Part shown: piece after piece, positions 10,516 to 49,087 of the stretch
Layout of the letters: each line of letters begins with the position of its first letter
Position numbering within the stretch: position 1 is the stretch's first letter
Source: Alphaproteobacteria bacterium
GTDB taxonomy: Bacteria > Pseudomonadota > Alphaproteobacteria > TMED109
Assembly: GCA_022819905.1 (NCBI GenBank)
Contig: JAJEGJ010000104.1
Span: 186,001-250,000 of the forward strand
Direction of reading: 5' to 3'
DNA: 64,000 bases
Made by a program: the position numbers and the translations under genes
Notes under the pieces: generated by a model
Database searches by the model: none
The model's input: only the letters and a program-made list of their open reading frames with translations
Told to the model about the DNA's origin: nothing

Positions 10516-10706
10516 GCGGCCTCTAACACTTGTGGCCACGTTCCGTTCCGTGAAGGATGACGTGGTCTGGGCAGGGCGAAGCAGGAATCTCGGAGTGCGA
10601 TTACAGTATCGGGCGGAATCGATTGACTGACAGCCGGTTGGATTCGCAATTACCGGCTGGCACGATGCTGACTGAGAATCTAATGTTGGGGGGTGGCCTC
10701 CTCTGC

Positions 10707-10783: not shown

Positions 10784-10994
10784 CACAGGTTTCGCGCGGG
10801 TCGGATGGCCCTTCGGATTGAACGACCTTGACCTGCGTCGATCTGACGTGCGCTGACCGCGATGGCATTTCAGATTTCGTTGGACTGAGCTGCCCCGAAC
10901 CGCCGCCTCCAAGACTGCCCGCCTGATGCCGTCTGCCCCCAAGCAGCCCGGCGTGCCCGTCGGGGGCCTGTCGTGATCGAGCTCTGCTGGCTGT

Positions 10995-12801: not shown

Positions 12802-12885
12802 CGAAACGTTAGTGGGGCGGCGGCCCACCACGACCATCCCCCACGTCGCCGCGCTCGCTCCAGTCAGCCATTCGGGAACGTCTGC

Positions 12886-13758: not shown

Positions 13759-14031
13759 GGCGGTTCCTTCCCATGGACGACTTCATCTAGCCGCGGAGCC
13801 TACATTGGCAGACTGGAGCTGGACATTGATCAACCGGTAGGTTCTGCTCGGATCCGGACGCAGCCTTGCATGGTCGCCTTCGGACGCCTCGGCCTGGCCT
13901 AGTTCGCGGCGAGGAAACCCTGGGATACGGGACGGTGGGAGTGGAGGAAAGGAGCAGGCGCCTTGCCGATCGACCGTCGCGAAGCCAGCTTCGCCAACCT
14001 GCTCACCTGTTGCCTGGCCGGATCGACCCAG

Positions 14032-17000
14032 CTAGCAGAGGGTTTCGGCCTCGACCAGCAGGGTGGCATTGCCGCCGGCAGCGGTTGTATCGATGCATAC
14101 GTGCCGTTCGATCACGTAGCGTTCGATCGCTCCCGGTTCGCTGATGAGCGGCAGAATCGGACCTGGACGCCGAGCGAGAGCTACGCGCAGCGTCGTCATG
14201 ACACCGTGGTCGGCGCAGCTGGCAACGGCGGCAATACCATCGAGCGTCGCGAGCGTCTCCGGAGCAAGCTGTCCGTCCAGGACCGACACTCGGGGATCAT
14301 CGCTCCAGCGGGCAAGCGCAGCCTCGGCTCCGTCGGCGATCACGACAGCGGCATTGCCGGTGCCAAGGGCTGTCGCCAGTTGTGCGCCCGCCGTGTCCAC
14401 GCCTGGACCCAGGCAGAGGATCACCCCACGCGGCACGAGATAAAGCCGGTTTGCTTCACCGGTTGGTCCCGGAAGGTCGAAAGGAGCGAATAGGAAGCGC
14501 CCGGCGCGCTTCTTGCCATTGGATCGAAACTGATCGGCATCTGCCTGTTCGTCTCGTTGCGGATTGCGGAGACGCGCCACCTCGTCGGCCCCAGCCGTCG
14601 GGGCGCTCGCCCGCGGACCGTGGTCGTGCAGACAGGATTCGAGACCTCGCGCCGCATTACGAATTGCCCGCTGAAACCGTCTCCGGTCAACCAATGCGCC
14701 CGCCGGAACACCGCCCGGCTCCGTGACACCGCGGGTCAGGCGCCGCAGGTAGTGGGGACCGCCCGCCTTGGGCCCCGTCCCGCTCTCGCCCTCGCCGCCG
14801 AAAGGCTGCGAGCCGACAACCGCACCGATTTGGTTCCGGTTTACGTAGATGTTCCCTGCGCGGACGTGGTCGACCGCATGCTGTACGCGACCGTCGATGC
14901 GGGTGTGCAGTCCGAACGTGAGGCCGTAGCCGGCAGCGTTGATGGCTTGAAGGACGGCGTCGATGTCTTCGGCAGCGTACGTCGCGACGTGTAGGACCGG
15001 CCCGAAGATCTCCTCGCCGAGCGACTCGATACCGTCCACCTGCACGACGCTCGGCGGCACGAACAGGCCTGTGTCCGGAGCTGCAGCGCTTTTCAATAGG
15101 CGCCCGTCACGCTCGGCGTCACTGCAATGGTCTTCGATGCGGTCCCGCGCCTGGCGATCGATGATCGGTCCGATGTCGGTGGCGAGATCCCAGGGATCGC
15201 CGATGCGCAGTTCGTCGATCGCGCCGTACAGCATCGCGAGGACCCGCTCCTCGACCTCTTGCTGGATGTAGAGGATGCGGAGCGCGGAGCAGCGCTGTCC
15301 GGCGCTCTGGAACGCGGACACGACGATGTCGCGCACCGCTTGCTCAGGCAGCGCGGTTGAATCGACAATCATTGCGTTCAAGCCGCCGGTCTCGGCGATC
15401 AGCGGAGCGTCCGGCGCTAGGCCCTCCGCCATCGCACGATTGATCTGCCGAGCGGTTTCGGTCGAACCGGTGAAGCAGACACCATCGACCGGCGAGTCGG
15501 ACACCAGCGCCCATCCCACCCGCTCCCCATCGCCGGGCAACAACTGCAATACGTCCCGAGGAATGCCGGCCTCGTACATCAGAGCGACGGCACGGGCCGC
15601 CATCAGCGGCGTTTGCTCGGCCGGTTTGGCAACGACCGCGTTGCCGGCGGCCAGCGCAGCGAGTATCTGCCCGGAGAAGATTGCGAGCGGAAAATTCCAC
15701 GGGGAAATGCAGGCAACGACTCCGAGCGGGATGCGCTCACCGGTCCCACATTCCCTGATTGCCTCGTTCGCGTAGAAGCGGGCGAAGTCACACGCCTCGC
15801 GCACTTCCGCGACGCTGTCGGACACGGTCTTTCCCGCTTCCCGGGCCGCGAGCGCGAAGAGTTCCGACACGTGCGCCTCGTAGAGATCAGCCACGCGACG
15901 CACGCGGCTCGCTCGCTCCCGTACCTCTATCGAAGCCCAGGTGGCGGCGCCCTTGCGGGCGGCCGCCATCACCGCGGCAATGTTCGCTGACGCCGACTCC
16001 GTGACATAACCCACGACATCGTCGTGCCGGGCAGGATTCCGCACTTCCCGGCGCAGCGCTCCGCCTTCCGGTCCCGCAACCGGGGGAGCCGCTTCCCATT
16101 GGGCGAACCGGAAGGACTGGCGTTCGCGCTCCAGCGCCTCGAGCTGCACGGGATCGGCAAGGTCCCGTCCTCTCGAGTTTCGGCGTTCGGGCAGGAACAT
16201 GTCCGCCGGCGCGGCAATGCGCGGGTTGGCGATCGTGCCGCCCAGGTCCTCGACCGCTGCCAGCGGGTCCTGGGCGATTTCCTCCGGCGTCACGTTCGTG
16301 TCGACAATCTGGTTCACAAACGAGCTGTTGGCGCCATTTTCAAGGAGGCGGCGCACGAGGTAGGCGACCAGATCTCTGTGGGCGCCAACCGGCGCGTAAA
16401 TCCGGCACCGGACGCCTCGCGCCTGCCGCACGGCCTCGTGCAGGGCTGCACCCATCCCGTGCAGACGCTGGAGCTCGAACACTGAAGTATCGTCGGCCAT
16501 GTGCAGCACTGCCGCAATCGTGTGTGCGTTGTGCGTTGCGAACTGCGGGTAGATGCGGTCCGTCATGCCGAGAAGTTTGCGCGCGCAGGCGAGATACGAG
16601 ACGTCGGTGCATGCCTTGCGCGTGAAGACCGGGAATCCGTCGAGACCAAGCGTCTGCGCACGTTTGATCTCGCTGTCCCAATACGCGCCCTTGACGAGCC
16701 GCACCATGACCCGGCGTCCCAGTTGCCCGGCCAGCTCGTACAGCCAGTCGATGACGTGCGGCGCTCGTTTGCCATAGGCCTGCACCACGACCCCGAAACC
16801 ATCCCAGCCGGCGAGCGCGGGGTCCGCCAGTACAGCTTCGATCACGTCTAGTGAAAGCTCCAGGCGGTCGGCCTCCTCGGCGTCCACGTTCAGGCCAACT
16901 CCGGCCGACTTGGCGAGCAGGGCGAGTGAACGCAGGCGTCCGGCCAGTTCGGACAGCACGCGGTCCCGTTGGCTGAACTCGTAGCGCGCGTGCAAGGCGG

Positions 17001-34246: not shown

Positions 34247-34738
34247 TCAGAAAAACACCACCAGCAGCGCGAGGCCACCTAGTCCGCCGAGGATGAAGGC
34301 AGCGGCGCTGACCATGCCAGCCAACGTGGCCCAGTCGGCCGCACGCCAGGTCTGCGCCTCGATGTTGAACATGACCTCTGACCGATCACCCTCGCCGTCG
34401 GTGAAGCGCTTGAGGGCAGTCTCGCTGCCATGCGCTTCCCGGATCGAGACCACGGTGACCAGGAACATGGTGAGCGCCGATGTCAGCGTGCCGATCCCGA
34501 ATATCAGGACGGTGGCCAGCGCTAACCAGTGGAAGGCGCCTTCGGCCTGCCCACCGGTGGCAGCGCTCATGAAGCCGATGACGAGCGCGGTGCCCGCACC
34601 ATTGCCGAACAGGAGGAAACGGGTCGCTTCAAGCAGATTGCGGAACATGATGTTCCGTCGCATGGAGACGACCTTGTAGCCCTCGCGAAGCCATTCCTCC
34701 GCGGTTTCTTCCCGTTCGAATTCGTTGATCCTCTTCAC
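34247..34738 (-). CDS. Small multi-pass membrane protein of unknown function
   Basis: A 163-residue protein with a charged N-terminus (RINEFEREETAEEWLREGY) and three to four hydrophobic segments: about 53-75, 78-100 and 138-163. A loop in between reads SIREAHGSETALKRFTDGEG. I do not recognise a family. Its GTG start overlaps the stop of the binding-protein gene (GTGA), so it is translationally coupled and is the last member of the overlapping gene train that begins with znuC. A membrane partner or accessory factor for that system is the natural context guess. Confidence 0.72.
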   Translation of the reverse strand: MKRINEFEREETAEEWLREGYKVVSMRRNIMFRNLLEATRFLLFGNGAGTALVIGFMSAATGGQAEGAFHWLALATVLIFGIGTLTSALTMFLVTVVSIREAHGSETALKRFTDGEGDRSEVMFNIEAQTWRAADWATLAGMVSAAAFILGGLGGLALLVVFF

Positions 34739-35916
34739 TGGGAAACCGCCTTCACCGGATGTTCCCCGGCAAACTCGATGATGCGCACATAGTCTGACCC
34801 CGTGTTGCTGCTAGCGTCGAAGGAAATCTCCCACCCGTCGATGACGGCCGGCTCCGCCGCCAGCGCGGTCCTGAGGAAGTCCTCTCGGTTCGGCGCGCCT
34901 GGCATGCGCTGAAGCACGTCGATGACGAACCGGCCCAGGATGTAGCCTTCCAAGCTTGTCGCATCCGCAGTGCGTGCCGCCGCCTCCGGCACAGCGGCTC
35001 GGTATGCAGCCAAGGCGGATCGAAACTGCTGAACCAGCGAGAGGCTTCCATCTCCGGCGTCCGGCATCACCCGGGCGACCAAAGCGGGTCCGAGGCGGTG
35101 CCCGAGCCGTTCCCGGAGTTGGCCGAGGTTCACGACCGACAGGAGCCCAAAGACGTAGTCGTGACCAAACGAACGCGCCATGTCGATCGCGTCGCCGGCA
35201 TTCGTCGTCGTCGACGCGAGCATCACGACATCGAGTTCCGCTTTCTCCAGGACGAACAGGCTGCCGTAGACGGAGTGGGAGTGCCAGGAATAGGACGCCT
35301 TGGCAAGGATCGGCAGATCGAGAGCCATCAGCGCGTCGCGGTAACCGGCCAGCACCGAACGGCCGAATGCATCGTCCTGGTAGATGATGCCAAAGCGGCG
35401 GGCACCCAGCCTGTCGTGCATGTAGGTGACCAGCTTTCGGGTCTCCTCGGCATAGCCGGTTCGCAGGTTCACCACGTTGGGAAAGCGGTCTCGATCGCGT
35501 AGCAAATTGGTGCCGGAGAGGACCCCGATGAACGGTACATGCGCACTCCGCAGTATCGGTGCCATCCTGAGCGCCGTCGGCGTGCCCAAGCCACCGATGA
35601 CAGCGAAGACGCCGTTGTCGGCGGCAAAGCCAACCGCGTTGGCCGCGGCAGTATCGGCATCGTACGCATCGTCACGCGACACCAGCGCAAGTATTCTGCC
35701 GTCGATACCGCCCCGGAGGTTGCGCTCGTGGAAGGCCGCGTCAATGCCGGCCCCGTACTGCAGACCGGTGGTTCTGCACACACCGGAGAAGCAGCTGCTC
35801 TGGGCGAAGACGATTCGGTCGCCCGTCACACCAGGCACTTCGGCGTTGGAATCAGCGAAGGCCTGGACCGGCAGTGCCAGCGCGACGATGGCAAGCTGCC
35901 TAACGGGCAGGAGCAT
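34735..35916 (-). CDS. LivJ-like periplasmic ligand-binding protein
   Basis: A 393-residue type I periplasmic binding protein with a signal peptide (LAIVALALPVQAFADSN). Features are DRIVFAQSSCFSGVCRTTGL (where amino-acid receptors usually have LTG), HERNLRGGIDGRILALVSRD, FAVIGGLGTPTALRMAPIL and RRFGIIYQDDAFGRSVLAGY. These match the branched-chain amino-acid / urea ABC receptor family. No Liv permease or ATPase genes are nearby. It overlaps the HflK-like gene by 17 bp and the small membrane gene by 4 bp, so it belongs to the SPFH/zinc train and may act as an orphan sensor or receptor there. Confidence 0.82.
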   Translation of the reverse strand: MLLPVRQLAIVALALPVQAFADSNAEVPGVTGDRIVFAQSSCFSGVCRTTGLQYGAGIDAAFHERNLRGGIDGRILALVSRDDAYDADTAAANAVGFAADNGVFAVIGGLGTPTALRMAPILRSAHVPFIGVLSGTNLLRDRDRFPNVVNLRTGYAEETRKLVTYMHDRLGARRFGIIYQDDAFGRSVLAGYRDALMALDLPILAKASYSWHSHSVYGSLFVLEKAELDVVMLASTTTNAGDAIDMARSFGHDYVFGLLSVVNLGQLRERLGHRLGPALVARVMPDAGDGSLSLVQQFRSALAAYRAAVPEAAARTADATSLEGYILGRFVIDVLQRMPGAPNREDFLRTALAAEPAVIDGWEISFDASSNTGSDYVRIIEFAGEHPVKAVSQ

Positions 35917-37315
35917 CGCTCGTCTTTGCCTTCGTGGTCGGTTTCGGCTCCGCTCCAGCGACGGTCTCCAGCATTGAGCCAGCCGCCCCGGGCTTCACCT
36001 CCTCTGTCAGGGCGGGCTTGTCTTCGGTCCCTTCGCCGGGTTCGACGACCGTCCCGGTCACAAGCGGAGGTTCGTCTCGCTCAGCGGCCGCCGCGACATC
36101 GGTCGGCGCGACATGGCGGTGACTGAAGATGGAGAGATCGTCAAATATCAAAGACCGAGGCTGGGCCGTACCCAGATGGTGGCGTTCCGCACCAGTCGAA
36201 TGGAAACGGCCCGAGATCGGGAAGCGGTCCTGCGCAATATTCTCGAACCCGTGCCGGCCCCGTTCGCTCGCCGTTGTGAGGGACCGCCGCGTACCTACCA
36301 GGGTTCCCGTCGAGACGTCGGCAGGTGCCCGCGCACCGGGTGCCCAACCGGCGCCGGGCACGAAACCATCGATCATGTTGATGTCGATCGCCGAAGCCTC
36401 ACCGGGCCCCGCCGCCGCGAGCGTGGCGTCCTGGAAGATCGTGCGCATCCGCTGCCAGTAGCGCGTTACCGTCACCGGGGCTGGCTGGCTGCGATATGCC
36501 GCCAGCAGTTGTGAAAACGCATCAGCGCTGCCCTCAGCCTGCTGCCGGCGCTCCTGCGCACGGGCTTGCGCGTTGGTGACCACGGCATTGGCCTGGCCCC
36601 GGCTGCGGGCGAGCAGCCGCTCTGTCCGCCGTCTTGCATCGCTGACCGCCTGAATGCTCTCAGCGATCGCGTCGCTCACGTCCCGGAACGCCGCCACGGT
36701 TTCGTCGATCGGGCGCAGGTCCACGATGCTGAGCGCCAACAACTCGATACCGACGTCGTTGGCTTCCAGCCAGGCAAGTACGTTCCTGAACAGGTGCGCC
36801 TGGATGATATCGCGGTTGTTGGTGAAGATGAGGTCGATGAAGTTCCTGCCCATGATCTGCACTAGGCGTTCGCGCACGATCAAGGTAAGGACGGTTTCCG
36901 GATCGGCCGTCGCATATAGGTAGTTCCGCAGGTTGCCGATGCGGTACTGCAGCGCGATGCTGGCTTCGAAGAGGTTGGCGTCGCCCGACAGGATCGAGAA
37001 GGACACGCTGCCCTGTTCATCCCGGGTCGCCACATCGCGCCGGGTGATGCGCATGACCTTGCGGACATGGGCCTGTTCGACGAACGGCAGCGCGTAGTGG
37101 ATGCCGGGCGGAATCTCTGCCCTCACGACCTCGCCAAAGCGCGTGAGAACCGCCTGCTCTTCCTTCTTCACGACATAAATGCCGGACGCCAGGACCGCTG
37201 CCACTGCAAGTGCCGCCAGCGAGGCGAGGGTGACCGTGCCGCGCCCGCGCAGCCGGTCAAAGACCGCGTAGATGACGCGGGTACTCGGCGCAAGCGCTTC
37301 GGAAGCTTCCTGCAT
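35900..37315 (-). CDS. SPFH/Band 7 membrane protein, HflK-like
   Basis: A 471-residue SPFH protein. A single membrane helix (about residues 28-48) is followed by the HflK-like start VKKEEQAVLTRFGEVV, then IPPGIHYALPFVEQ and SILSGDANLFEASIALQYRI. The Band 7 core is followed by a helical region rich in Arg, Ala and Gln. The last 160 residues are low-complexity and not HflK-like. HflK with HflC forms a membrane cage around FtsH in E. coli. Here it follows an HflC-like gene by 12 bp, with no FtsH in sight, and belongs to a metal-transport gene train. Assignment as an HflK paralogue is solid; the partner protease or transporter is unknown. Confidence 0.82.
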   Translation of the reverse strand: MQEASEALAPSTRVIYAVFDRLRGRGTVTLASLAALAVAAVLASGIYVVKKEEQAVLTRFGEVVRAEIPPGIHYALPFVEQAHVRKVMRITRRDVATRDEQGSVSFSILSGDANLFEASIALQYRIGNLRNYLYATADPETVLTLIVRERLVQIMGRNFIDLIFTNNRDIIQAHLFRNVLAWLEANDVGIELLALSIVDLRPIDETVAAFRDVSDAIAESIQAVSDARRRTERLLARSRGQANAVVTNAQARAQERRQQAEGSADAFSQLLAAYRSQPAPVTVTRYWQRMRTIFQDATLAAAGPGEASAIDINMIDGFVPGAGWAPGARAPADVSTGTLVGTRRSLTTASERGRHGFENIAQDRFPISGRFHSTGAERHHLGTAQPRSLIFDDLSIFSHRHVAPTDVAAAAERDEPPLVTGTVVEPGEGTEDKPALTEEVKPGAAGSMLETVAGAEPKPTTKAKTSDAPAR

Positions 37316-37327: not shown

Positions 37328-38254
37328 CTACTCTGGCACCCGCACCGAATCCGGGGTCGGTGCCGGTGCCGAGATCGTCCCACCGTCCAAGTATTTGAAC
37401 AGCTCGCTGTCGGCGGGCAGGATCAGTGTGGTGTTCTGGTCGATGATCGAATCGTAGCTGTCGAGCGCCCGGATGAACTCGTAGAAGTCCGGGTCCGCGC
37501 GATAGGCCTCGGCAAGTGTCTTCAGGGCATCGGCCTCCGCCTGGCCCAGAATGACCGTCGCCTCGGCATGGGCGGCCGCCATAATCTTCTGATGCTCGTT
37601 GATCGCGAACGCTTCTATGCCAATTGCCCGTTCCTCGCCCTCGCTGCGGTAGCGGGCGGCGATGCGGGCGCGCTCGGAGATCATCCGCTTGATGACGCTC
37701 GGGCGGTTCTCCGCCGGCAGGGTGTATTCGACCAAGCCGGCTCGGACGACGTCGATTCCGTAGTCTACTGAGGCAACGGGCTGAATCTGTTCGAGGATTT
37801 CCCCGGAAACCTTGGCCACGTCCTGATGCTGCAGGCCGAGGCTGACAAAGGCGTCCCTTGACTTGTTGCTGACGACGATGCCGACACTCGATCGGTAGAG
37901 GTCGCCCAGACGCTTGACGGCATTGGCCTCGGTCCGGATGGCTTCGACGAAGCGGATGGGATCCGCAACCCGCCACAGCAAATAGCCGTCCACCAGGACA
38001 TTCTTCTGGTCCTCGGTGATCAGTTCCTGCTTGAGGCCTGTCAGTGGCCGGATCCGTCGGTCAACCTTGTAGACGATGGAAATCGGCGTGGGCAGTTTGA
38101 AATGCAGGCCAGGACCCCTGACCGGCGGGATGATCTTCCCGAAATGGGTGAGGACGCCCTGCTCCGATTCGTCGATCACATAGTGAATGTCCCAGGCCAG
38201 CACGCCCGCGATCAGGACTGCGGCGGTCGCCGCGATGGTCTTGTACCTGCTCAT
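37328..38254 (-). CDS. SPFH/Band 7 membrane protein, HflC-like
   Basis: A 308-residue HflC-like protein: membrane helix at about residues 7-22, then YVIDESEQGVLTHFGKIIPP and VRGPGLHFKLPTPISIVYKV. The segment GYLLWRVADPIRFVEAI and the GIDVVRAGLVEYTLPAENRP segment are typical HflC features, as is RMISERARIAARYRSEGEE before the C-terminal coiled coil. Its ATG overlaps the stop of the permease-SPFH fusion gene (ATGA). With that fusion and the downstream HflK-like gene it forms three SPFH genes in a row. Confidence 0.87.
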   Translation of the reverse strand: MSRYKTIAATAAVLIAGVLAWDIHYVIDESEQGVLTHFGKIIPPVRGPGLHFKLPTPISIVYKVDRRIRPLTGLKQELITEDQKNVLVDGYLLWRVADPIRFVEAIRTEANAVKRLGDLYRSSVGIVVSNKSRDAFVSLGLQHQDVAKVSGEILEQIQPVASVDYGIDVVRAGLVEYTLPAENRPSVIKRMISERARIAARYRSEGEERAIGIEAFAINEHQKIMAAAHAEATVILGQAEADALKTLAEAYRADPDFYEFIRALDSYDSIIDQNTTLILPADSELFKYLDGGTISAPAPTPDSVRVPE

Positions 38255-40578
38255 GGCTGGCCTCCCGAATTTGCCGCTTCGTGTCCGCTCTGATGTCCGT
38301 GTCCCGGCTGCTCGGGGCGGCCGGGGTCAGTGGCGGTGACGCCGTTCGATGATTTCCACAAGGCGACTTTCTTCAGCGTGTCTCCGTTCGGCACGATGAC
38401 CTTGCGCCGCCCCGCAAGTGACGCCTCGAGCTTCTCCCGCCACAGCATGGTGTGCAACACATCGGGCGCCTGCTGCACCACGTCCGCGACCGTGCGGATG
38501 GCCTCACTCTCCGCGGCCGATGTCACCGTTCTCCGTTCCGCTTCGCCCTTGGCCTGCTCGACTTCGTAGGTCGCGTTGCCGTGCGCCCGGGGGATCATCG
38601 ACACGGTCAGGCGCTGGGCGTTTACGATGATGCGTTCCCGATCATCCTGCGAACTTGAGACTTCGCGGAACGCGCTCATCGAGTCGGCCGCCGGTTCGAC
38701 CGACAGCAGGCTGACCCGGACCAGTTCGATCGCGTCGAGCAGGACGCCGTCCCCGCCGGCCATGCGCCTCTCGAACACATTCGCGATATGGTCCTGAAGT
38801 TGCGCCCGCTCAACATTCAGCAGTTTATCGAGCGTCCGCCCGGCCACGTACTTCCGCAGTTCCTTGCGGATATTGTCGCCGATCACCCACTCCGGGTTCG
38901 CGACGCGGTAGTGGTAGACGTACGGATCCTTGACCCGGTACTGAACGCTCATCGACATGGACACGAGGTTTACGTCGCCTGTGAGATACTCGTCTGACGG
39001 GCCGCTGGTGACGGATTTGACCTGTCGCACTGGCCAGCGATCCGCCTGTGCAAAGGGCCAGGGCGCGAGATAGTGCAGGCCGGGCGGCAGGTCGCGCCAC
39101 ACCACCGCGCCGAACAGCCTCCCGTAACCGACCTCGCCGGGACGCACGACCATAAGACCGCTGGCCAGAAAGGCGATGACCAAGGCAGCCAGAATGCTCG
39201 CGCCGGCCGGGGTGCCAGGCCGGAACAGGCCCTTAACAGGGGCATTGCGCGTCATCCTGGCCCACCAGCTCTTCAGTGGTGCAGACACCGGGCGCAGGTT
39301 GGAAAACAGGTCCTGGTAACCGGTCTTGAATGCACCGGCCCGGAAACGCCAGAACATGAGGGCGAAGAGACCGAGCGCACCAGCCCACTGGAGGGTCAGC
39401 AAGGCCGGCGACTCAGACGCATCGAGGTTCACCGAAAGCGACAGGCCGAAGGCGATCATGGCCAAGTCAACGGCGATGCCCAATACCATCGTTACGGCAA
39501 TCACCGACCCGACATAGACGGATGCGAAGCGCGCGCCAAACTGACTGGCGACGATTGCGATAGTCCCGGTATTGGTGGCTGGGCCGGTCATCAGGAAGAT
39601 GAGCGCTGCACCGGGGCTGAAGCCCTTGGCAACCAGGGCTGCAGCGATCGGCGTGCTGGCAGAGGCGCAGATATAGAGCGGGACCCCGACTAGCACCATG
39701 ACCGGGTAGGACAGCCAGCGGGCGTATTCGTGGGCCATAAGGTCGTTTGGTATGGCGAGATAGAGCGCGCCGCCCAGAATGACGCCGACCAGCAGGGCAA
39801 AGAGGATATCGTCGGCGACCTCGACAAAGCCGTAGCGCAGAATGTGCTTGCAGACAGTGGTGAAGGACAGGTCGCCGAGGCCGTGACCGGCGTCGGTCCG
39901 TTGCGTGGCTTGGACCTCGGGAAGCGAGAGAAACTCGCGGTAGAAATCGGGCTTGATCCACGTCATCGACCGGGCCCGCCCGATGCCCTGGTTCATGCGG
40001 GCCAGCCAGGCAACGAAGAACGCCTTAAAGGCAGCCGGGCTGATGTAGCAGTCGTCGTCGCCAGGGATCAGGGTCTTGTGCCCATGATCGTGACCATGAT
40101 GATCGTGTCCATCATGGTCGTGGTCCTGGTCGGAATCTTCCGCGGCCGGCTCGGGCGTCGCGCCATCACGGATCATGCCGATGCAGAAGATGCCGGCCAC
40201 GACGGCGGTGATGAAGCTAATGACCGGACGGACCACGGCAGCGACGGGGCCGAAGAAGGCGTTCGTGACCAGAATCGAGTCTGCCCCGGTTTCGGGCGCC
40301 GTGATCAGGAACGACATGCAGGCCGAGCGCGAGGCCCCCTTGCGCCGCATCTCCGCGACCACCGGGACCACTGAGCAACTGCAGAGCGGCATCGGTACGC
40401 CGATCGCCGCGCTGGCGGCCACGGACTTCAGACTGTCGCGGTGCAGCCATCGCAGGACGGCATCCCGCGAGATAAAGACGTGGATCAGCCCGGCCAAGAA
40501 CAGCCCGAGCAGAAGCATCGGCCCGAGCAGCAAGAAGGACGTCCACAGGAACTCCAAGAACAAGACAAGGGTTTCCAT
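38251..40578 (-). CDS. Fusion of a PLCSCS-type permease with an SPFH (HflK-like) domain
   Basis: A 775-residue membrane protein with two parts. Residues 1 to about 430 are a PF03773-type permease (SO_0444/ArsP-like) with about eight to ten helices, the motif PMPLCSCSVVPV at 63-74, a His/Asp-rich cytosolic or periplasmic loop at about 150-168 (HDHDGHDHHGHDHGH), and the second-half motif ASASTPIAAALVAKG. From about 454 comes another helix (SILAALVIAFLASGLMVV) and an HflK-type SPFH domain (RPGEVGYGRLFGAVVWRDLP). The C-terminus ends in a short His-containing tail. The ATG has GGAGGGG upstream and overlaps the znuA stop (TAATG). Metal export or sensing is likely; the fusion itself I have not seen described. 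Confidence 0.85.
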   Translation of the reverse strand: METLVLFLEFLWTSFLLLGPMLLLGLFLAGLIHVFISRDAVLRWLHRDSLKSVAASAAIGVPMPLCSCSVVPVVAEMRRKGASRSACMSFLITAPETGADSILVTNAFFGPVAAVVRPVISFITAVVAGIFCIGMIRDGATPEPAAEDSDQDHDHDGHDHHGHDHGHKTLIPGDDDCYISPAAFKAFFVAWLARMNQGIGRARSMTWIKPDFYREFLSLPEVQATQRTDAGHGLGDLSFTTVCKHILRYGFVEVADDILFALLVGVILGGALYLAIPNDLMAHEYARWLSYPVMVLVGVPLYICASASTPIAAALVAKGFSPGAALIFLMTGPATNTGTIAIVASQFGARFASVYVGSVIAVTMVLGIAVDLAMIAFGLSLSVNLDASESPALLTLQWAGALGLFALMFWRFRAGAFKTGYQDLFSNLRPVSAPLKSWWARMTRNAPVKGLFRPGTPAGASILAALVIAFLASGLMVVRPGEVGYGRLFGAVVWRDLPPGLHYLAPWPFAQADRWPVRQVKSVTSGPSDEYLTGDVNLVSMSMSVQYRVKDPYVYHYRVANPEWVIGDNIRKELRKYVAGRTLDKLLNVERAQLQDHIANVFERRMAGGDGVLLDAIELVRVSLLSVEPAADSMSAFREVSSSQDDRERIIVNAQRLTVSMIPRAHGNATYEVEQAKGEAERRTVTSAAESEAIRTVADVVQQAPDVLHTMLWREKLEASLAGRRKVIVPNGDTLKKVALWKSSNGVTATDPGRPEQPGHGHQSGHEAANSGGQP

Positions 40579-41561
40579 TAACCCCTCCCGCCGCTGAGGC
40601 ATCTTTCGAAGGCGGACCCGAGATTGCGCATGATCTCGAACCAGGCGTCCGGACCGGATGGGGCCGTGAGCCCAATCGGGTCCAGCGACGCTGTGCGCAC
40701 CCCCGTCCCCTCGATCACGGTCCGAACTAGGTCCGGCTCGAACTGCGGTTCGGTGAAGACGCAACTGACGTTGCGCGCAGCCAGCGTCGCACGCAACTCA
40801 GCGAGTCGCTTGGCGCCCGGCGGGCGGGCCGGATCGACGGCGACTGCGCCCGCAGCCTCGAGCCCGAACGACTCTTCGAAATATCTGTAGCCGTCGTGAA
40901 ACACGATGAAGGCGCGGTCGCCAAGCGGCGCCAGGTGGGTGCGCAACGCCGCCGCCAGCGCATCGATGCGTGCCTGCACCGCCTCCGCGTTGCGGCGATA
41001 CGTCCCGGCATGGGTCGGGTCGATCCGGACCAACGCGTCCGCAATCACGCCCGCGATGCGCCGCGCGTTGCCGGGGTCGAGCCAGAGGTGCATGTCAAAT
41101 TCACCATGGTCGTGGCCGTGGTCGGCGTGTTCGTCCGCGTGAACCTCACTCTGCACACCGTGCTCGAAGATGCCGCCCTCCCGGTTGGGCAGTAAGCGCA
41201 GCCCGGGCTCCTCGTGCAGCGTGAGCACGACGGCGCCAGTCCCCAATGTCGCAACCGGTCGTGTGAGGAAGGACTCCAAACCAGGCCCGATCCAGACCAC
41301 TAGATCAGCCCTGCGCAGCATCCGCGCCTCCGAGGGCCGCATCTGATAAAGATGCGGTGACGCGCCGCCACTCACCAGCAGCCGGGGTTCCGCTACGCCC
41401 TGCATCACGCCAGCGGCCAAGGAATGCAACGGCTTGATGCTTGCCACCACCTCGGGCGCAGCCCCCGCCGGCAATCCAGCGGACGCAGACAGGACGGCGG
41501 CTAGGAGGGCCGGTACCAAGACCGCTCGCCGCCACCTACCACTGCTCTGGCCGCCCGTCAT
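40578..41561 (-). CDS. znuA: Zinc ABC transporter substrate-binding protein
   Basis: A 327-residue periplasmic zinc receptor. It has a signal peptide (ALLAAVLSASAGLPAGAA), zinc-ligand histidines in KPLHSLAAGV (His46) and GASPHLYQMRPSEA (His70), then the flexible His-rich loop at about 134-158 (VHADEHADHGHDHGEFDMH) that distinguishes ZnuA from manganese receptors. FHDGYRYFEESFGL and FTEPQFEPDL complete the fold. The ATG at 41561 overlaps the znuB stop (ATGA); the frame upstream is only open because it runs antiphase through znuB. The next gene is coupled by TAATG. Confidence 0.93.
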   Translation of the reverse strand: MTGGQSSGRWRRAVLVPALLAAVLSASAGLPAGAAPEVVASIKPLHSLAAGVMQGVAEPRLLVSGGASPHLYQMRPSEARMLRRADLVVWIGPGLESFLTRPVATLGTGAVVLTLHEEPGLRLLPNREGGIFEHGVQSEVHADEHADHGHDHGEFDMHLWLDPGNARRIAGVIADALVRIDPTHAGTYRRNAEAVQARIDALAAALRTHLAPLGDRAFIVFHDGYRYFEESFGLEAAGAVAVDPARPPGAKRLAELRATLAARNVSCVFTEPQFEPDLVRTVIEGTGVRTASLDPIGLTAPSGPDAWFEIMRNLGSAFERCLSGGRG

Positions 41562-42352
41562 GGCCGCGCACGCCGGGCCGGGACGGGCAGGCCGGCGAGG
41601 AACAATAGGCCGGCGACCAGGACGATGGCTGGCCCTGCCGGAAGATCCCAAGCCAGCGATCCGGCGAGGCCTGCCCCGACCGAGACCGCCCCGGCGGCAA
41701 CTGCGGCGGCGGCCATCGCCTCGGGCGTCGTCGCGATCCGGCGTGCCGCAGCGGCCGGCATGATCACCAGTGCCACCACCAGCAGCATGCCGACGATCTT
41801 CATGCCAACGGCAATCACTGCAGCTAGCAGAAAGACGAGCAGCAGGCGGACCCGTTCGACCGGCACGCCCTCGGCTGCGGCTAGGTTCGGGTCGATGGTG
41901 ATCGCGAGCAAGTTGCGCCACTGCCAGGCGATGGCGGTGAGGGTCGCCGCAGCGGTCACGCCGATCAGCCACAGATCCGCCGCGCCGATCGAGAGGATGT
42001 CGCCGAATAGGTAGCCGATCAGGTCAACCCGCACCCGTTCCATGAACGCCAATGCCACCAGACCGCCAGCGAAGGCCAGGTGGGCGAGCACGCCGAGCAA
42101 GGTGTCGACGGCGACAGGTGAGTGACGCTCAAGCAGGGCAAGGCAGCCAGCAAACAGGAAGCAGACCACCAATACTGCGAGCGTCGGTTCGATCTCCAGC
42201 AGGAAGCCGAGTGCCACGCCGAGCAGCACCGCGTGCGCCAGCGCCGTACCGAAATATGCCATGCGCCGCCACACCACGAAGCAGCCGACTGGGCCTGCCG
42301 CCAGCGCCACACCGAGTCCACCGGCGAGTGCGCGCCACACGAAATCCTCCAT
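41558..42352 (-). CDS. znuB: Zinc ABC transporter permease
   Basis: A 264-residue ABC-3 family inner-membrane permease with about eight helices, homologous to ZnuB. The family pattern is visible in AGPVGCFVVWRRMAYFGTAL at the N-terminus, then GVALGFLLEIEP, LIGYLFGDILSIGAADLWLI and GMKIVGMLLVVALVIMPAAA near the C-terminus. I use the ATG at 42352, which shares one base with the znuC stop (TGATG). It is more distantly related to the three znuB2-like sequences at 26.8, 29.5 and 46 kb, which form their own group. Confidence 0.93.
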   Translation of the reverse strand: MEDFVWRALAGGLGVALAAGPVGCFVVWRRMAYFGTALAHAVLLGVALGFLLEIEPTLAVLVVCFLFAGCLALLERHSPVAVDTLLGVLAHLAFAGGLVALAFMERVRVDLIGYLFGDILSIGAADLWLIGVTAAATLTAIAWQWRNLLAITIDPNLAAAEGVPVERVRLLLVFLLAAVIAVGMKIVGMLLVVALVIMPAAAARRIATTPEAMAAAAVAAGAVSVGAGLAGSLAWDLPAGPAIVLVAGLLFLAGLPVPARRARP

Positions 42353-43194
42353 CAAGCCCGCCCGCCGGTCGGCGCTGGGTCCGCCAGGGCGTCGTGGCGG
42401 TGATCGTGCTGGTGGGGATAGGCTGCCAGCGCCTCGGCGAGGTGCTGGCCGAACAATGCAACGAAGGCTGGGTCACGCGCGATCGTCCGCGGCGGGCCCG
42501 AACAGCAGACATGCCGGTTCAGGCAAACCACCCGGTCCGTCGCAGCCATCACCAAGTGGAGATCGTGCGAAACCAATAGCACGCCGCAGCCGTAGCGGTC
42601 TCGGATCCGCGCCACCAGGTCGTAGAGCTCGCCCTGGCTTGCGATGTCTACCCCGGCGGTCGGCTCGTCGAGCACCAGCAACTCCGGCTCGCGCAGCAGC
42701 GCCCGCGCCAGCAGGACGCGTTGCAGCTCTCCGCCGGAGATTTCCGCCATCGGCAGGTCAAGGATCGCGTCCGCCCCAACCTCGCCGAGCGCCCCCGCCA
42801 CCCGCTCAGGCACCACCAGCGCACTGAGCGAGAGAAAACGCCGCACCGTCAGCGGCAGGAACGGGTCACGCCTAACCTGCTGAGGTGAATAGCCGACGCG
42901 CAGGCCGGGCGCACGCGTAGCCGTACCGTCGTCAGGCCGGAGGATACCAAGCAGAACCCGTACCAGCGTTGATTTGCCGGCGCCGTTCAGCCCGACAAGA
43001 GTGACGATTTCGCCGGCGTGGACCGTCAGGTCAACCGCCTCTAGCACGCGCCGTTGGCCCAACTGGACGCTGACCTGCCGTGCCTCTACGAGCGGCCGCC
43101 CGCGGTGTTCGCTGTCCCGCCCGCCCCTGTGTCGAGGATCGCCCCCGGACGCTTCGCCGCCGAATAGCTCGTTGGCGGGCGGAAATGCGTTCAC
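42352..43194 (-). CDS. znuC: Zinc ABC transporter ATPase
   Basis: The ATPase that drives ZnuB, with Walker [11 protein letters not shown]-loop [12 protein letters not shown], signature [15 protein letters not shown], Walker [13 protein letters not shown] and H-loop [12 protein letters not shown]. The C-terminal extension has HQHDHRHD, common in ZnuC. I chose the GTG at 43194 (280 residues); a start at 43293 would add 33 residues, and the true start could be later, near the [10 protein letters not shown] core. It is the only transporter ATPase visible for all the zinc-type permeases in this window, so the znuA2/znuB2 modules may share it. Confidence 0.9.
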
Positions 43195-43874
43195 CGCAAA
43201 ATCTACCCTGGTTGCCGTCCGGCGGGTGAAAACACGCCCCGCTTCGCGGGCTGGGCAGAACCGCGTTGGCACGCCCGTCGCCGGGACACGCATGCCATCA
43301 TGTCATCGGCTCGCCATTTGGCGACTGCCCTGTCTTCTCGAACGCCATCGCCGTCCTCTCCCCCAATCCACACTCGTCCTGATCCCGTCCAAAGGGTTCC
43401 GAGCACGCCAGAACCGAGTGGCGAGTGGCGCTGCGGCCCGAATTTCGCTCACGCTACGCGATAACTGTCGCTATCACGCACAATGATGTCAAGTCACGTC
43501 CGTAAGCCTGTCGCACCGTCTTCCAGGTATGATCTGTTGCCAATGCTAGATTCTATGTCTTTGAATCGCACGGTTTTCCTGGCTTCTGACGAGTTGCGCT
43601 TAAGCCGCACCGTCAGATAGAAGGGCTTACCGGCACCGTCAATTGTTCAAACCGATAACTGTTTGGTGAATCCGTCTCCGGCTGGTGTGCACGGCCTGAC
43701 CCGGGCGCTGCGCCCGGACAGACCCTGCACCACCGTGGCGGGCGGGCTACGCGCGCCGCCGTCTTGAAGATATGGGGGCACCTGCCCGGGGCTGAGCGTC
43801 TCGCCGCCTCAATTTGCCATCCTTGCCGAGCGAGCGAGACAACCGGTCGTCGGCGATGCTGCTGTAAATAGAAT
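43195..43874. other. Upstream region of the znuC gene train
   Basis: About 680 bp without a supported gene. It should hold the promoter of the znuC train. A weak dyad, GATA-N8-TATC (43460-43475), is the only operator-like sequence noticed and is not a convincing Zur box. A 7-bp perfect hairpin (CCGGGCG-CTG-CGCCCGG, 43701-43717) has no T-run. The right end abuts the inverted-repeat element. Confidence 0.5.
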
Positions 43875-43908: not shown

Positions 43909-44740
43909 TTACGCTGCCAGCCTTCGATCCGTTTCACGGGTCGCCGGGGTCGCTGAATGCGATCGCCCCTCGCCGTGCAGCCGCGCCAGTCCCCGACGCC
44001 GGATGTTGCGGGCCGCGTTCAGGTCCGCGTGATCCGCGTGGCCGCAGGCGACGCACTCGAAACTCGCCCGACTGCGGCGCGAGGCGGCGTCCGCATGGCC
44101 GCACGCGGCGCAGGTCCGGCTGGTATGGGCCGGGTCCACCGCGACCAGCCGCGGCGCCTTGTAGGCCAGCATCGCGCGGAGACCGCTCCAGCCCGTCGCC
44201 AGGATCCCGCGGTTCAGGCCGGCTTTCTGCCGGACGTTCCGCCCGGGCGCCGCCACCGTGCCCCTCGCCGATGCGGTCATCGCGCGCGTCCGCAACGCCT
44301 CGACCGCCACCGTGCCCCCGGCCAGCGACCGGCTCACGTGGTGCTGCCAGTCGCGGCGCCGCTGCGCGATCCGCCGCTGCGTGCGCTCGCGCCGTCTCGA
44401 GCCGCGGCGCTGCCGGGCGAGGCGGCGCTGATACCGCCGCTTCCGGGCCTCCAGCCGCCGGCTGTCGGGCGCGTGCACGATGCGGGCGCGACGGCCGTCG
44501 CTGACGGCGACCTGGCCGACGTTCATGTCGATGCCGGTGGCCGTGCCGTCGTCGGGACGCGCGGGCGCCACGACCGCGTAACACACGACGGCCATACATG
44601 CGCGCCATGTCATGGAGCTGCGCCTGCTGGTCGAGCATCTCGTTCCAGACGAACCGGCAACCGCCGCCAGGCGCTGGGCGGTGGCCGGCCGAACAGCACC
44701 CGGTAGACGATCTGCCGGTGCTCCACGCCGTCCGGCCCAT
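43909..44740 (-). pseudogene. tnpB: tnpB (IS605 OrfB-type RNA-guided nuclease) remnant
   Basis: The C-terminal two thirds form one open frame with all RuvC parts: TATGIDMNVGQVAVSDGRRA (first catalytic Asp), GTVAVEALRTR (Glu), a zinc ribbon CAACGHAD with FECVACGHAD, and DHADLNAARNIRRR (last Asp). The N-terminal third is broken: HRQIVYRVLFGRP, ATAQRLAAVAG and CRFVWNEMLDQQAQ occur in three different frames. More than 100 residues of the usual wedge/REC region are deleted between ARMYG and VCYAVV. The gene ends 2 bp from the inverted repeat, so no normal right end or omega-RNA scaffold remains. It is not expected to work. Confidence 0.85.
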
Positions 44741-45854: not shown

Positions 45855-46643
45855 TCACGTCTGGCGAAGATCTTGCCGTGAAGTTGGGCGGGACATCCAG
45901 CGAGACACGACGCGGACCACGATGGCGGACACGGCAAAACAGAGTACGAGGAACGGCCCGGCCGGAAGATCAGCTGCGGTTGACACCAGGATTCCTGCAA
46001 TGACCGCAACGCCACCGCTAAGAAGGGCACGCCAAAGACTGTATGAGCCGTCCGTCCGCCGCCCCGCCAGCGCCGGCAGAATCAGACTCGCAAAGACCAC
46101 GTACACTCCCAGCAATTGAACAGACGCGGTTACCGCGAGTGCAAACAACAGGAAGAACCCTTGCCCGGTTCTGAGAGCCGGGTACCCCAGCCAAAGCCCG
46201 GCGACCAGGAGATACACCGGCAGGAATGCGGTCAGATCTGACCAAGACGTGAACAGGATCTGGCCCGAGAGAATGTGCTCGAGCTTTTCCCCTCCATGCG
46301 GGCTGTTAGCGAGCAGCAGCAGGGTCACCGATGCGGCGACGATAAAGCAGCTGCCAATGGCCGCTTCCTGCTCATCGGGGATGGTTCTTTCCGCCCACCG
46401 GAACAGGAAGGCAAACGCTGCTGCCGCTCCAAATGCCGCCACCTGGGTTCCGATCCACGATGGGTCCGTTACCCAGATGTTGAGCGCGACGATCGCGACC
46501 CCGGCCACCTGCGCCGTGGCTAGGTCGATGAACACGATTCCTCGCCTCAGCACCTCGATGCCCAGCGGCGCATGCAGCGCCGTACACAAGAGACCGATCG
46601 CGAATGCCGGTAGGACGATCTCAAGTAATTCAGTGTCGATCAC
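45855..46643 (-). CDS. ABC-3 family metal permease, intact copy B (znuB2-like)
   Basis: A 262-residue permease with about eight helices: MIDTELLEIVLPAFAIGLLC, APLGIEVLRRGIVFIDLATA and AAIGSCFIVAASVTLLLLAN. LLGVYVVFASLILPALAGRR is the conserved C-terminal helix region. The PLGIEVLRRGIVFIDLA segment replaces the GCFVVWRRMAYFGTAL segment of classical ZnuB. It overlaps the binding-protein stop by 14 bp, exactly like the damaged copy A. There is no ATPase in this module, so it probably borrows ZnuC or a distant one. Zinc or another first-row metal is the likely substrate. Confidence 0.88.
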   Translation of the reverse strand: MIDTELLEIVLPAFAIGLLCTALHAPLGIEVLRRGIVFIDLATAQVAGVAIVALNIWVTDPSWIGTQVAAFGAAAAFAFLFRWAERTIPDEQEAAIGSCFIVAASVTLLLLANSPHGGEKLEHILSGQILFTSWSDLTAFLPVYLLVAGLWLGYPALRTGQGFFLLFALAVTASVQLLGVYVVFASLILPALAGRRTDGSYSLWRALLSGGVAVIAGILVSTAADLPAGPFLVLCFAVSAIVVRVVSRWMSRPTSRQDLRQT

Positions 46644-47559
46644 GCACGGTTTCCAGCAGCGTGAGTGTTACGTCAAAAAGGTCGAACAAGTCGTCGACGC
46701 CCTCCAGGCCGCCGACGGTAAAGGGCAACTCGACAATTGGGATCCCGGCCTTGTCAGAAAGCCATTCCATCCCCTCTGAAGGCTCGTACGGAGCACGGAG
46801 AATGGCGCGGGCGCCCGCAGTCCGGGCCAGTTCCAAGACCTCTTGCAGATGGCTGGCCGTCGGCGGAACACCCGGGAGGCGTTCGATCGCCGCGACTTGT
46901 TCGATACCGGTCCACGCGAACAGGTAGGTCCATGCTTCGTGGTACGCGACGACGGGCATGCCTTCGAGTTGGGACGTCCGTCCCGTCCATCCTGCGGTAG
47001 CGTCCTTCCATCGGTCCTGGAACGCCGACAGCCGACGGCGATACGTCTCGGCGTTGTCTGGATCGATCACCGTGAGGCGGCGGGCCAGCTCGGTCGCCAG
47101 GAAGCCAATGTTCGCTGGCAGGAGCTGCACGTGCGGATTGCCCTCCGCGTGCACGTGTCCCAGGCTGCGGTCGACACGGCTGGGCGGGTCCAGCAATCGG
47201 ACATGGGCGCTGGCCATCAGGTGACCGGGTTGATGGGGCTGGATGGTCGCACGAGCTCCCCGCTGCAGAAGCACCGGAAGCCATCCTTCCTCCAAGCCCG
47301 CCCCGGAGCAAAACAGAACGTCGGCCCGGCGTACTTGGGCGATTAGGCTGGGGCGCGCACGGATATAGTGCGGGTCCTGTCGGCCATGCGTTGCCGCATA
47401 CACATGGACCGCATCGCCCCCGATGTCGGAGGCCAAGGCCGCCCATTCTGGCTCGCAGGCGAAAATGCGCACTTCGGCAATCGCCGGGGATGGTTGAACC
47501 ATCCCCGGCGCGGCCAGCGCGGCGATCCAGGTCATCCGCGCAAGTCGTTTTAACAACAT
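46630..47559 (-). CDS. Zinc/manganese-type ABC substrate-binding protein, intact copy B
   Basis: A 309-residue periplasmic cluster A-I receptor, with a signal peptide ending PSPAIAEV. The probable metal ligands are His64 (QDPHYIRA), His143 (GNPHVQLLP), His207 (VVAYHEAW) and an acidic residue in APYEP (about 259). There is no His-rich loop. It starts 13 bp after the porin stop and overlaps the permease by 14 bp, giving a porin-receptor-permease order that suggests outer-membrane, periplasmic and inner-membrane steps of one uptake route. It is nearly collinear with copy A at 27574-28503. Confidence 0.88.
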   Translation of the reverse strand: MLLKRLARMTWIAALAAPGMVQPSPAIAEVRIFACEPEWAALASDIGGDAVHVYAATHGRQDPHYIRARPSLIAQVRRADVLFCSGAGLEEGWLPVLLQRGARATIQPHQPGHLMASAHVRLLDPPSRVDRSLGHVHAEGNPHVQLLPANIGFLATELARRLTVIDPDNAETYRRRLSAFQDRWKDATAGWTGRTSQLEGMPVVAYHEAWTYLFAWTGIEQVAAIERLPGVPPTASHLQEVLELARTAGARAILRAPYEPSEGMEWLSDKAGIPIVELPFTVGGLEGVDDLFDLFDVTLTLLETVRDRH

Positions 47560-47572
47560 CGATCAGCCCCGA

Positions 47573-49087
47573 TCAGTACGTGTGCGCTCCATGAGCGCCC
47601 AGGCTCATGATGTACTGCAGGTACAGTTGGTCGTCGGTTACCTCGCTGGTCAGCGCTTCCCGGCTGAATTGCAGCCGGACCCGCCCGAACTCGCTGTTGG
47701 TCCAGTCGCCCATTAGCGAGACGGTCGACGGGTCGTGTTCGACTTCGTACACGTGATTTGCCATGTCGGCCGAGCTCAGCGGATTGAGGCGAGAATACCG
47801 GAAGCCGATCCGCCAGGCAGGGTTGAACTTGTACGTGCCTTGCAGGTACCAGCCGCTGCTCGTGCCGTCGACCGCGGTCATTTCGCCCTCATCATCGCTG
47901 TACACGCCGTCTTCAGCACGCCAGAAGTACTCGCCTTGCAGCGTCACCTCTTGGTCACGAGGATTGCCGGTCGGTGCCCACGTGTAGCGTACATCGAGGG
48001 CGTAGAGCGTGGTGTCGCCGGTAAACACGCCTTCCGCGAGAAGGTCGTGATGCCCTTCCTGCTCCTCGTCGCCGGCCATTTCTGGTTCGTCATCGTGATC
48101 GTCGTCATGTACGTCAGTGTCAATGCGTTCCTCTTCATCGTGATCCGCATCATCTTCGTCGTCATGCACCTCTTCGTCGTCATGCCCCTCTTCGCCATGT
48201 GCATCGCTGCTGCCATGACCGTGGGCAATGCTGCGTGGGGTGGCCGATCCATTCAGCACGTAAGCGCCAACACGGAATGACTGGTTGGTGCCGATGTCGT
48301 TACCAAGCCGGGCGTAGGCCGACGTCACGCCGCGGCCGGTGTCTGAGCTCCCGAAGGGGAAGTCGTCGCCACGAAACAGTCCGGCACCCGCCTCCGCGTA
48401 CATCTCCGACGGGAACACGTAGGCGAGTTCGAGGCCGTTATCGTTGTACGATTTGTCAATGAACACCCGGTAGGGAAGTGGCCGATCAACGAAGTCGTCC
48501 GCGTGTGGATGGTGTTCGTTCAGGTAGCCCAGGGTCCAGAACGCCCGTCCGGCCTTGACGCGGAGCCCGTCCGGAAGTCCGGCGCCTGGCAGGGTTTGGA
48601 TGTAGGCCTCTTCGAGCTCAATGGCTTCGGAGCCGTCCTCTTCTGCGTGAATGCCGATAGTGCTGCTTCCAAAGAACTTGTCGTCGATGTTGGCGGAGAA
48701 GTTGAATTCGGTTTCGATCAGAGAGAGGCCTTCTTGGCCGCGCTGGCTTTCGTGTCCGAGCTGAAACCCCGAGACTTCCTGGGGTGCCGCCGAAAAGTCC
48801 GCCACGGCCGCATTCAAGATGACCCCGATGGCGGGATTAAACGCACTGCTTTGGCCACGGGCGCCGGTTGCCGGAGTTGCCGGCGCAGCAGATTGGGTGG
48901 TGATGGCTTCGAGTTGAGCCTCGAGGTTTTGGATGCGGGTCTCGTAATCTTGTTTCAGCGCCTTGATTTCGGCGGCAAGTTCCGCCGCAGTTGGCGCATC
49001 GTTGGTTTGGGAATGCACTTCCGGCGCGATCAGGAAAATCGGCGCGGCCAGAAGCGCAAGTCTAGTTAGTCCATGAAGGGATGGCAT
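47573..49087 (-). CDS. Outer-membrane porin-like protein with a long His/Asp/Glu-rich loop
   Basis: A 504-residue outer-membrane protein with a signal peptide (to about residue 26) and a short coiled coil at about 35-65 (AAELAAEIKALKQDYETRIQ), as in trimeric porins. A beta-barrel region follows, ending in aromatic strands (LYLQYIMSLG). Between about 285 and 348 lies an extreme acidic/His loop (HGEEGHDDEEVHDDEDDADH), followed by GHHDLLAEGVF. Such a loop could collect zinc or similar ions at the cell surface. It lies directly upstream of a metal receptor and permease and is duplicated, in degraded form, at 28.5-29.3 kb. This is a porin rather than a TonB receptor because no plug domain or TonB box is visible. 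Confidence 0.82.
   Translation of the reverse strand: MPSLHGLTRLALLAAPIFLIAPEVHSQTNDAPTAAELAAEIKALKQDYETRIQNLEAQLEAITTQSAAPATPATGARGQSSAFNPAIGVILNAAVADFSAAPQEVSGFQLGHESQRGQEGLSLIETEFNFSANIDDKFFGSSTIGIHAEEDGSEAIELEEAYIQTLPGAGLPDGLRVKAGRAFWTLGYLNEHHPHADDFVDRPLPYRVFIDKSYNDNGLELAYVFPSEMYAEAGAGLFRGDDFPFGSSDTGRGVTSAYARLGNDIGTNQSFRVGAYVLNGSATPRSIAHGHGSSDAHGEEGHDDEEVHDDEDDADHDEEERIDTDVHDDDHDDEPEMAGDEEQEGHHDLLAEGVFTGDTTLYALDVRYTWAPTGNPRDQEVTLQGEYFWRAEDGVYSDDEGEMTAVDGTSSGWYLQGTYKFNPAWRIGFRYSRLNPLSSADMANHVYEVEHDPSTVSLMGDWTNSEFGRVRLQFSREALTSEVTDDQLYLQYIMSLGAHGAHTY

Follow-up and report, generated by a model that had tools for sequence, protein, structure and literature searches.

The 64,000-nucleotide stretch analysed here (the window; positions 186,001 to 250,000 of contig JAJEGJ010000104.1, alphaproteobacterial assembly GCA_022819905.1) encodes a 775-residue protein in which a metal permease of the SO_0444/ArsP_1 family is fused to an HflK-like SPFH domain. 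The gene heads a cassette of five, and the evidence tips the balance, by a small degree, towards a dedicated SPFH assembly in which the permease is an HflK-type subunit. Each of the parts comes from a known family; what is new, within the literature searched (mostly without subscription papers and preprints), is their fusion in one chain and the five-gene cassette, of which no description was found.

The reading frame of the fusion runs from 40578 to 38251 through 775 open codons, beginning at an ATG with a good ribosome-binding site (gggaggggttaATG). The longest open frame extends upstream to a TTG at 40764, and most homologues start near the ATG. Pfam assigned residues 16-370 to ArsP_1 (E 9e-44) and residues 477-654 to Band_7 (E 6e-13; 49.7 bits with PF01145, the Band 7/SPFH family, whose gathering cut-off is 23.6). 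NF033936, the model for SO_0444 Cu/Zn efflux permeases, covered residues 12-409 with 320.2 bits, above its cut-off of 300. The HflK-like span comprises residues 495-734, and alignment of the fused SPFH part with HflK paired residues 463-736 with HflK 85-351. Both NF033936 and the hflK model were matched by all 20 aligned fusions. Along 37.5-41.5 kb, GC content stays between 0.60 and 0.68, free of any break. The original prediction had described a single continuous permease–SPFH polypeptide at 38251-40578 with no shift in composition, bearing a PLCSCS permease motif and a His-rich loop at about residues 150-168. Its coordinates were correct (minus strand), Pfam, NCBIfam and the homologues bear out the single chain, and the motif and the His-rich stretch were located at residues 64-69 and 153-167, respectively.

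A frame error or assembly join was considered as the source of the fusion and ruled out. The identical junction recurs in 31 loci from 30 genomes, on contigs of up to 6.5 Mb (G364) and in a 1.59-Mb Dadabacteria record whose title calls it a chromosome (L038), and ratios of nonsynonymous to synonymous substitution rates (dN/dS; 11 pairs) were 0.03-0.30 for the permease, 0.07-0.57 for the linker and 0.07-0.21 for the SPFH part. By these ratios, all parts of the fusion are under purifying selection. The original prediction would have fallen if no other genome held both domains in one protein; a scan of genome contigs returned 20 related loci, 19 of them full-length fusions (55-82% identity) and one, L042, matching in the permease only.

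Downstream of the fusion, and in the same direction, lie genes for an HflC-like protein, an HflK-like protein, a periplasmic binding protein and a 163-residue membrane protein, an order found at 19 of 19 homologous loci (in one, L033, the contig ends inside the binding-protein gene). The two SPFH neighbours scored 75.9 and 47.7 bits with PF01145. The fusion ATG overlaps the stop codon of the upstream znuA by 1 nt, and the end of the fusion overlaps the hflC-like start by 4 nt. Because adjacent genes from znuC to the 163-residue protein gene overlap by 1-17 nt, with a 12-nt gap as the sole exception, they are likely read on one transcript.

A 133-row SPFH tree resolved three separate groups, each with a support of 100 in the SH-like approximate likelihood ratio test (SH-aLRT): fused SPFH domains, HflK-like proteins of the operon, and its HflC-like proteins. 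The fused domain paired with the operon HflK on the HflK side (SH-aLRT 88), and the operon HflC grouped with HflC. These positions give the cassette two K-type subunits and one C-type subunit. The HflK/C cage is a 24-mer in which the two subunit types alternate. An ordinary HflK/HflC pair is encoded on another contig of the same genome (L131), a circumstance that also suits a different explanation, in which the SPFH half serves as a handle for regulated destruction or protection via FtsH, so that permease amount is set by metal or membrane stress with no enclosed chamber. HflK/C regulate FtsH in E. coli, according to the accessible text of PMC12048511, and the fused domain is of the HflK type. 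Yet the cassette was without an FtsH gene at all loci compared, and such a handle needs no separate HflK, HflC, binding protein or 163-residue protein, all of which accompany the fusion. We regard this explanation as unlikely.

The members of the cassette also travel together. In 64 Latescibacterota genomes, the operon-type HflC (at least 535 bits; all other matches at most 219) occurs in 14, the same 14 that carry the fusion, and the 163-residue protein occurs in these 14 and in G358 only, whose contig begins inside the cassette HflK gene. In seven genomes (G355, G361, G365, G369, G375, G376 and G377) the permease stands alone, and the six complete copies share 66-73% identity with their nearest query; the operon HflC and the 163-residue protein were found in none of the seven. 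Another genome, G368, has permease fragments only, at contig ends. Comparison of the same chromosomal place revealed that L092, a fusion locus, has a stretch of about 5.0 kb (9235-14268) where L085 and L086, with standalone permeases, have 45 nt, both flanks being alignable. The same pattern recurs in a second lineage (L093, with the fusion, against L087 and L089). The block of about 5 kb begins inside the fused gene just past the permease and ends just past the gene for the 163-residue protein; wherever the same place was compared, the SPFH half comes or goes with all four remaining genes, as a single block.

Fusions and standalone permeases were intermixed in a 52-row permease tree, which forces at least three changes. 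Loss of the block as a proven direction was weakened as a candidate, since grouping the fusions together was not rejected in a 38-row tree (p-AU 0.066, approximately unbiased test). Pairwise distances of the permease, fused SPFH domain, HflC, HflK and 163-residue protein correlate at r 0.95-0.99 across 18 loci, with the window counted and L029 and L033 excluded, values that shared descent alone can yield. By BLAST, no permease gene was found beside a separate HflK gene in the fetched loci, many of which are only about 3.5 kb long. L088 contains two standalone permease copies a few kb apart and in opposite directions, one of them adjoining a gene for a CobW GTPase.

This pattern of inheritance bears on another account of the fusion, namely that the SPFH half merely clusters or anchors the permease by self-association while the HflC-like and HflK-like neighbours have another job. 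Permeases without the SPFH part persist at the same chromosomal place in relatives, which would make that half an accessory; against this, none of the 64 genomes has the fused domain without the operon HflC type or the reverse, and the block is missing as a whole. We give self-association very little credence. Co-assembly with the neighbouring HflC-like and HflK-like proteins, as the original prediction had suggested, is made more likely by the strict co-occurrence and by the tree positions.

In the permease half, residues C66, S67, D100, C304 and P333 of the transport core are present in 27 of 27 family rows and intact in the fusion, and the core residues of the PxPLCSC, PETGxD, PxYxCA and GPATN motifs are conserved between the 16 fusions compared and these rows. 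A first structure model (alignment A1) was discarded at a predicted local distance difference test score (pLDDT) of 44. The model of the 775-residue chain used here was built from 70 rows after permease and HflK rows had been trimmed (A8), because alignments A6 and A7 had placed HflK membrane helices on the permease; its mean pLDDT is 76.7, with values of about 85-95 over most of the permease. Ahead of the Band 7 domain, the original prediction had noted one further membrane helix; the model has two, at 391-413 and 457-475, which a basic linker separates. The linker, residues 416-456, is predicted to be cytoplasmic and the SPFH domain periplasmic, as in HflK.

In the model, each permease half opens with one long helix and closes with another; between them lie paired half-helices and then a second broken helix. 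Should the first pair form a re-entrant hairpin and the second cross the membrane as a broken helix, the two halves would be inverted relative to each other. Lys plus Arg counts, inside to outside and with the central loop left out, are 15:1 under the inverted-repeat reading for both the window protein and the mean of 16 fusions, and 4.8:0.4 for the 27 family rows without the linker. Under a 4+4 topology they are 12:4, 12.3:3.8 and 3.0:2.2, respectively. This 4+4 topology, which the text available from PMC7176098 gives for ArsP and which hydropathy at first favoured, would place the His loop in the periplasm; it was rejected because the paired half-helices in the model and the charges favour the inverted arrangement. 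The His-rich loop is probably cytoplasmic in the resulting model, on the opposite side of the membrane from the SPFH domain, itself probably periplasmic.

Structural comparison of residues 1-382 returned NaS1 (Z 12.8), Pho90 (12.7), CNT (12.5) and ArsB (11.9), with root-mean-square deviations of 4.3-5.2 Å over 251-289 residues (NaS1, 5.2 Å and 289 aligned), and further paired this half with NaDC3, INDY, YdaH and TRAP structures. As these transporter Z values fall under the caution line of about 13 for helical proteins, an elevator fold of the IT superfamily, with inverted repeats, is likely for the permease half and stays short of proof. Foldseek alone returned no confident match for this half (probability at most 0.60 among the transporter matches listed). 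Residues 514-733 matched HflK (Z 12.2). As a separate observation, the model suggests that ArsP_1/SO_0444 permeases in general resemble inverted-repeat elevator transporters, not the 4+4 duplication proposed in PMC7176098.

Histidines in the central loop number 8-32 in 29 fusions, 4-6 in the seven standalone copies of the same clade and 0-2 in the 27 other family rows; as the rows are related, this correlation spans few independent events. The His-rich loop specific to the fusion, SO_0444 membership and the zinc-gene neighbourhoods together strengthen the original view of metal as the substrate, which would be a transition metal, most likely zinc.

Homologues of ZnuA, ZnuB and ZnuC lie by the cassette at 11 of 11 alphaproteobacterial loci, the window included, and a ZnuA-like protein and an ABC-3 permease are encoded a few kb upstream at the Dadabacteria loci. 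In Latescibacterota, ZIP genes lie behind the cassette at L092 and behind the standalone permease at L086, and there are RND, CusB-like (L092) and CDF (L093) genes in the vicinity. From their gene content, zinc handling is the common theme of these neighbourhoods. Importer and exporter genes both occur, and the neighbours thus leave the direction of transport undecided. By analogy with its family, the fusion most likely performs efflux, a preference that we hold only modestly: SO_0444 of S. oneidensis is required under Zn or Cu stress, and its assignment to efflux comes from mutant fitness in the portion of PMC3219624 available. An uptake system, in which the fused permease imports a metal complex that the binding protein has picked up in the periplasm and the SPFH proteins provide a scaffold, would account for the probable common transcript with ZnuABC in the window, for the constant presence of ZnuABC at the alphaproteobacterial loci, for the Latescibacterota ZIP genes and the CobW GTPase beside a standalone copy, and for a dedicated periplasmic binding protein. 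The efflux role assigned to SO_0444, the RND and CDF genes (usually exporters) beside other copies and the modelled cytoplasmic side of the His-rich loop speak against uptake, which we consider distinctly improbable.

How a dedicated SPFH assembly might work can be sketched from these elements. The fused SPFH domain and the HflK-like protein would alternate with the HflC-like protein to form a dome on the periplasmic face of the membrane, like that of E. coli HflK/HflC, and many permease copies would thereby be gathered in one enclosed membrane patch. The C-terminal residues of HflK and HflC, about 110 in number, build the hat of the E. coli cage, as the accessible text of PMC12048511 describes. 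The cytoplasmic His-rich loop would gather metal ions for the permease, which would move them by an elevator mechanism, and the binding protein and the 163-residue protein may act at the dome, where they would probably handle or sense a metal or ligand. A stronger form of this proposal, which we put forward only tentatively, since the chances are against it, is that of a caged transporter: about a dozen metal permeases, covalently part of one HflK/C-type dome, would move ions into, or out of, a closed space in the periplasm that has a binding protein to itself.

Several findings weigh against the permease being a subunit of such an assembly. The hflK model TIGR01933 gave the fusion 123.5 bits, under its equivalog cut-off of 159.4, and because the operon HflK-like protein also scores below this line, both are filed as HflK-like only. 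The SPFH tree was made by a quick method and has long stems, and its pairing of the fused domain with the operon HflK is only moderately supported. Model pLDDT is below 50 at residues 473-499 and 504-515, just past TM10. Seven genomes keep the permease without the cassette, and the permease can thus do without it. Binding-protein distances track those of the other members less well (r 0.76-0.86), so this protein may be a looser partner of the cassette. In the window, the fusion gene directly follows zinc importer genes, with which it overlaps by a single nucleotide, an odd position for an exporter. Finally, what the cassette proteins would do in assembly and transport is read from sequence and one model.

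Full-length fusions were found in uncultured bacteria, namely alpha- and gammaproteobacteria, Verrucomicrobiota, Latescibacterota and Dadabacteria. The 31 loci comprise 19 from 18 genomes (one metagenome-assembled genome, MAG, gives its title to both L027 and L032), the window genome, ten more Latescibacterota genomes and L100, one more fusion-bearing genome from the window's class. Record titles of the 19 loci name Rhodospirillales/Defluviicoccus, Paracoccaceae, Gammaproteobacteria, Opitutia, Latescibacterota, Gemmatimonadota and Dadabacteria. In the genome set used, the titles Latescibacterota and Gemmatimonadota stand for a single phylum, as both phylum searches gave the same 64 genomes. 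Two of the 19 come from bins of a marine sponge, Aplysina aerophoba (bin65 = MPMX and bin129 = MPNO), according to the part of PMC5649159 available; others, with RHO, APA and jk18 in their names, are presumably of sponge origin too. Full fusions occur in 14 of the 64 genomes in the phylum of G071/G072 (Latescibacterota), and in 2 of 57 in the phylum of G073 (a Dadabacteria MAG); among the 199 genomes of the G062 order and the 24 of its family, the seed was each time the single carrier. Counting every SO_0444 permease above the thresholds used, fused or not, 5 of 289 genomes of the window's class were positive, two of them with fusions, as were 27 of 321 genomes from the G077 class (Gammaproteobacteria), where the seed was again the one fusion by open frame. 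The fusion was absent from six genomes of the window's own genus, and none of 72,556 plasmid records had a place covering 80% of the fusion protein. Such patchy occurrence, together with the tree evidence, suggests transfer between lineages.

One further SO_0444 homologue, L128, is probably a pseudogene, with a TGA in frame close to residue 55 and a gap in the second half. The selenocysteine form of the family has UxC, as stated in the accessible text of PMC13188914.

Table 1. Features of the fusion gene, its cassette and the adjoining zinc transport genes (positions in the window)
Feature	Positions	Strand	Basis
Fusion gene, SO_0444-type permease + HflK-like SPFH domain, 775 aa	38251..40578	-	Pfam, NCBIfam, homologues
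Permease half including transmembrane helix 9 (TM9), residues 1-415	39334..40578	-	ArsP_1 16-370, NF033936 12-409, model
PLCSCS motif, tip of hairpin 1, residues 64-69	40372..40389	-	sequence, model
His-rich stretch of central loop, residues 153-167, predicted cytoplasmic	40078..40122	-	
Basic linker TM9-TM10, residues 416-456, predicted cytoplasmic	39211..39333	-	model, charges
TM10, membrane helix of HflK-like part, residues 457-475	39154..39210	-	hydropathy, model
HflK-like SPFH domain, long helix and C-terminal region, residues 477-745, predicted periplasmic	38344..39150	-	Band_7 477-654, HflK alignment 463-736, model
HflC-like protein, cassette gene 2	37328..38254	-	TIGR01932 160.4 bits, above cut-off 134.4
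HflK-like protein with long conserved tail, cassette gene 3	35900..37315	-	TIGR01933 134.8 bits, under cut-off 159.4
Peripla_BP_6 periplasmic binding protein, no ABC partner in cassette, gene 4	34735..35916	-	
163-aa membrane protein, no Pfam family, gene 5	34247..34738	-	
ZnuA-like zinc-binding protein, stop overlaps fusion ATG by 1 nt	40578..41561	-	
ZnuB-like ABC permease	41558..42355	-	
ZnuC-like ATPase, start uncertain	42352..43293	-	

Further observations concern the smaller members and the surroundings of the cassette. The tail of the operon HflK-like protein contains a conserved His-containing motif (RSLIFDDLSIFSHRH in the window protein), in which R387, S388, L389, F391, D392, S395, F397, H399 and H401 do not vary among all 12 rows aligned (A5); it is a possible metal or partner site. 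The 163-residue family shares an invariant charged N-terminal stretch, EEWLRE.YKVV. At L029 (11272-12632), the HflK-like gene is split over two frames and the 163-residue protein gene is shortened, through assembly error or decay. A second ABC-3 permease, a ZnuA-like protein and a 504-residue protein without a Pfam family are encoded at 45855-49087 of the window, and relatives of these three occur in the same order near Dadabacteria cassettes. Between the two zinc ABC gene sets, at 43909-44613, lies a TnpB-like gene (Cas12f1-like TNB, OrfB_IS605; 234 aa), possibly truncated.

The contents and purpose of SPFH cages remain under debate. In this case, a single transporter is joined to a single cage-type subunit and distant phyla have kept the two together, so that the genome itself names a client and its compartment. 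If the caged arrangement were true, it would be a type of transport compartment for which the literature searched gave no precedent among SPFH proteins; the words "permease" and "transporter" are absent from the text of a paper on prokaryotic SPFH evolution (PMC2636767) and likewise from one on P. aeruginosa SPFH proteins (PMC13086221). Genomes with the permease only, at the same chromosomal place, offer a natural control for the contribution of the cage part, and the His-rich loop that accompanies this part suggests a concrete, assayable role in metal handling.

Among known systems, the SO_0444 family (NF033936; ArsP_1 PF03773; TC 2.A.119) shares the whole permease half, with the PLCSC, CASAS..P and GPATN motifs and the extra C-terminal helix TM9, whereas its other members examined stop after TM9, have no SPFH domain and carry mostly Cys pairs in the central loop in place of the histidines. 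Pairs of the QmcA-YbbJ type differ from the fusion in being separate polypeptides that are not known to include a transporter. They and other SPFH-NfeD pairs resemble it in that an SPFH protein has a dedicated membrane partner, to judge from the part of the QmcA-YbbJ record (8z5g) available. The FArhodopsin gene pair similarly has an SPFH-superfamily gene conserved next to an unlike membrane protein, as the accessible text of PMC10308929 reports; there, however, the genes are separate, the SPFH protein is a flotillin rather than HflK/C, and the partner is a rhodopsin rather than a metal permease. A further parallel is offered by the E. coli HflK/HflC cage (7vhp, 7vhq, 7wi3, 9cz2, 9paw), which has the same SPFH domain, long helix and C-terminal region, adjacent K-type and C-type genes, and a periplasmic SPFH domain, as predicted for the fusion. 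Unlike the E. coli subunit, the K-type subunit of the fusion bears a nine-helix permease ahead of its membrane helix, and the cassette combines two K-types with one C-type in a genome that encodes an ordinary HflK/C pair besides.

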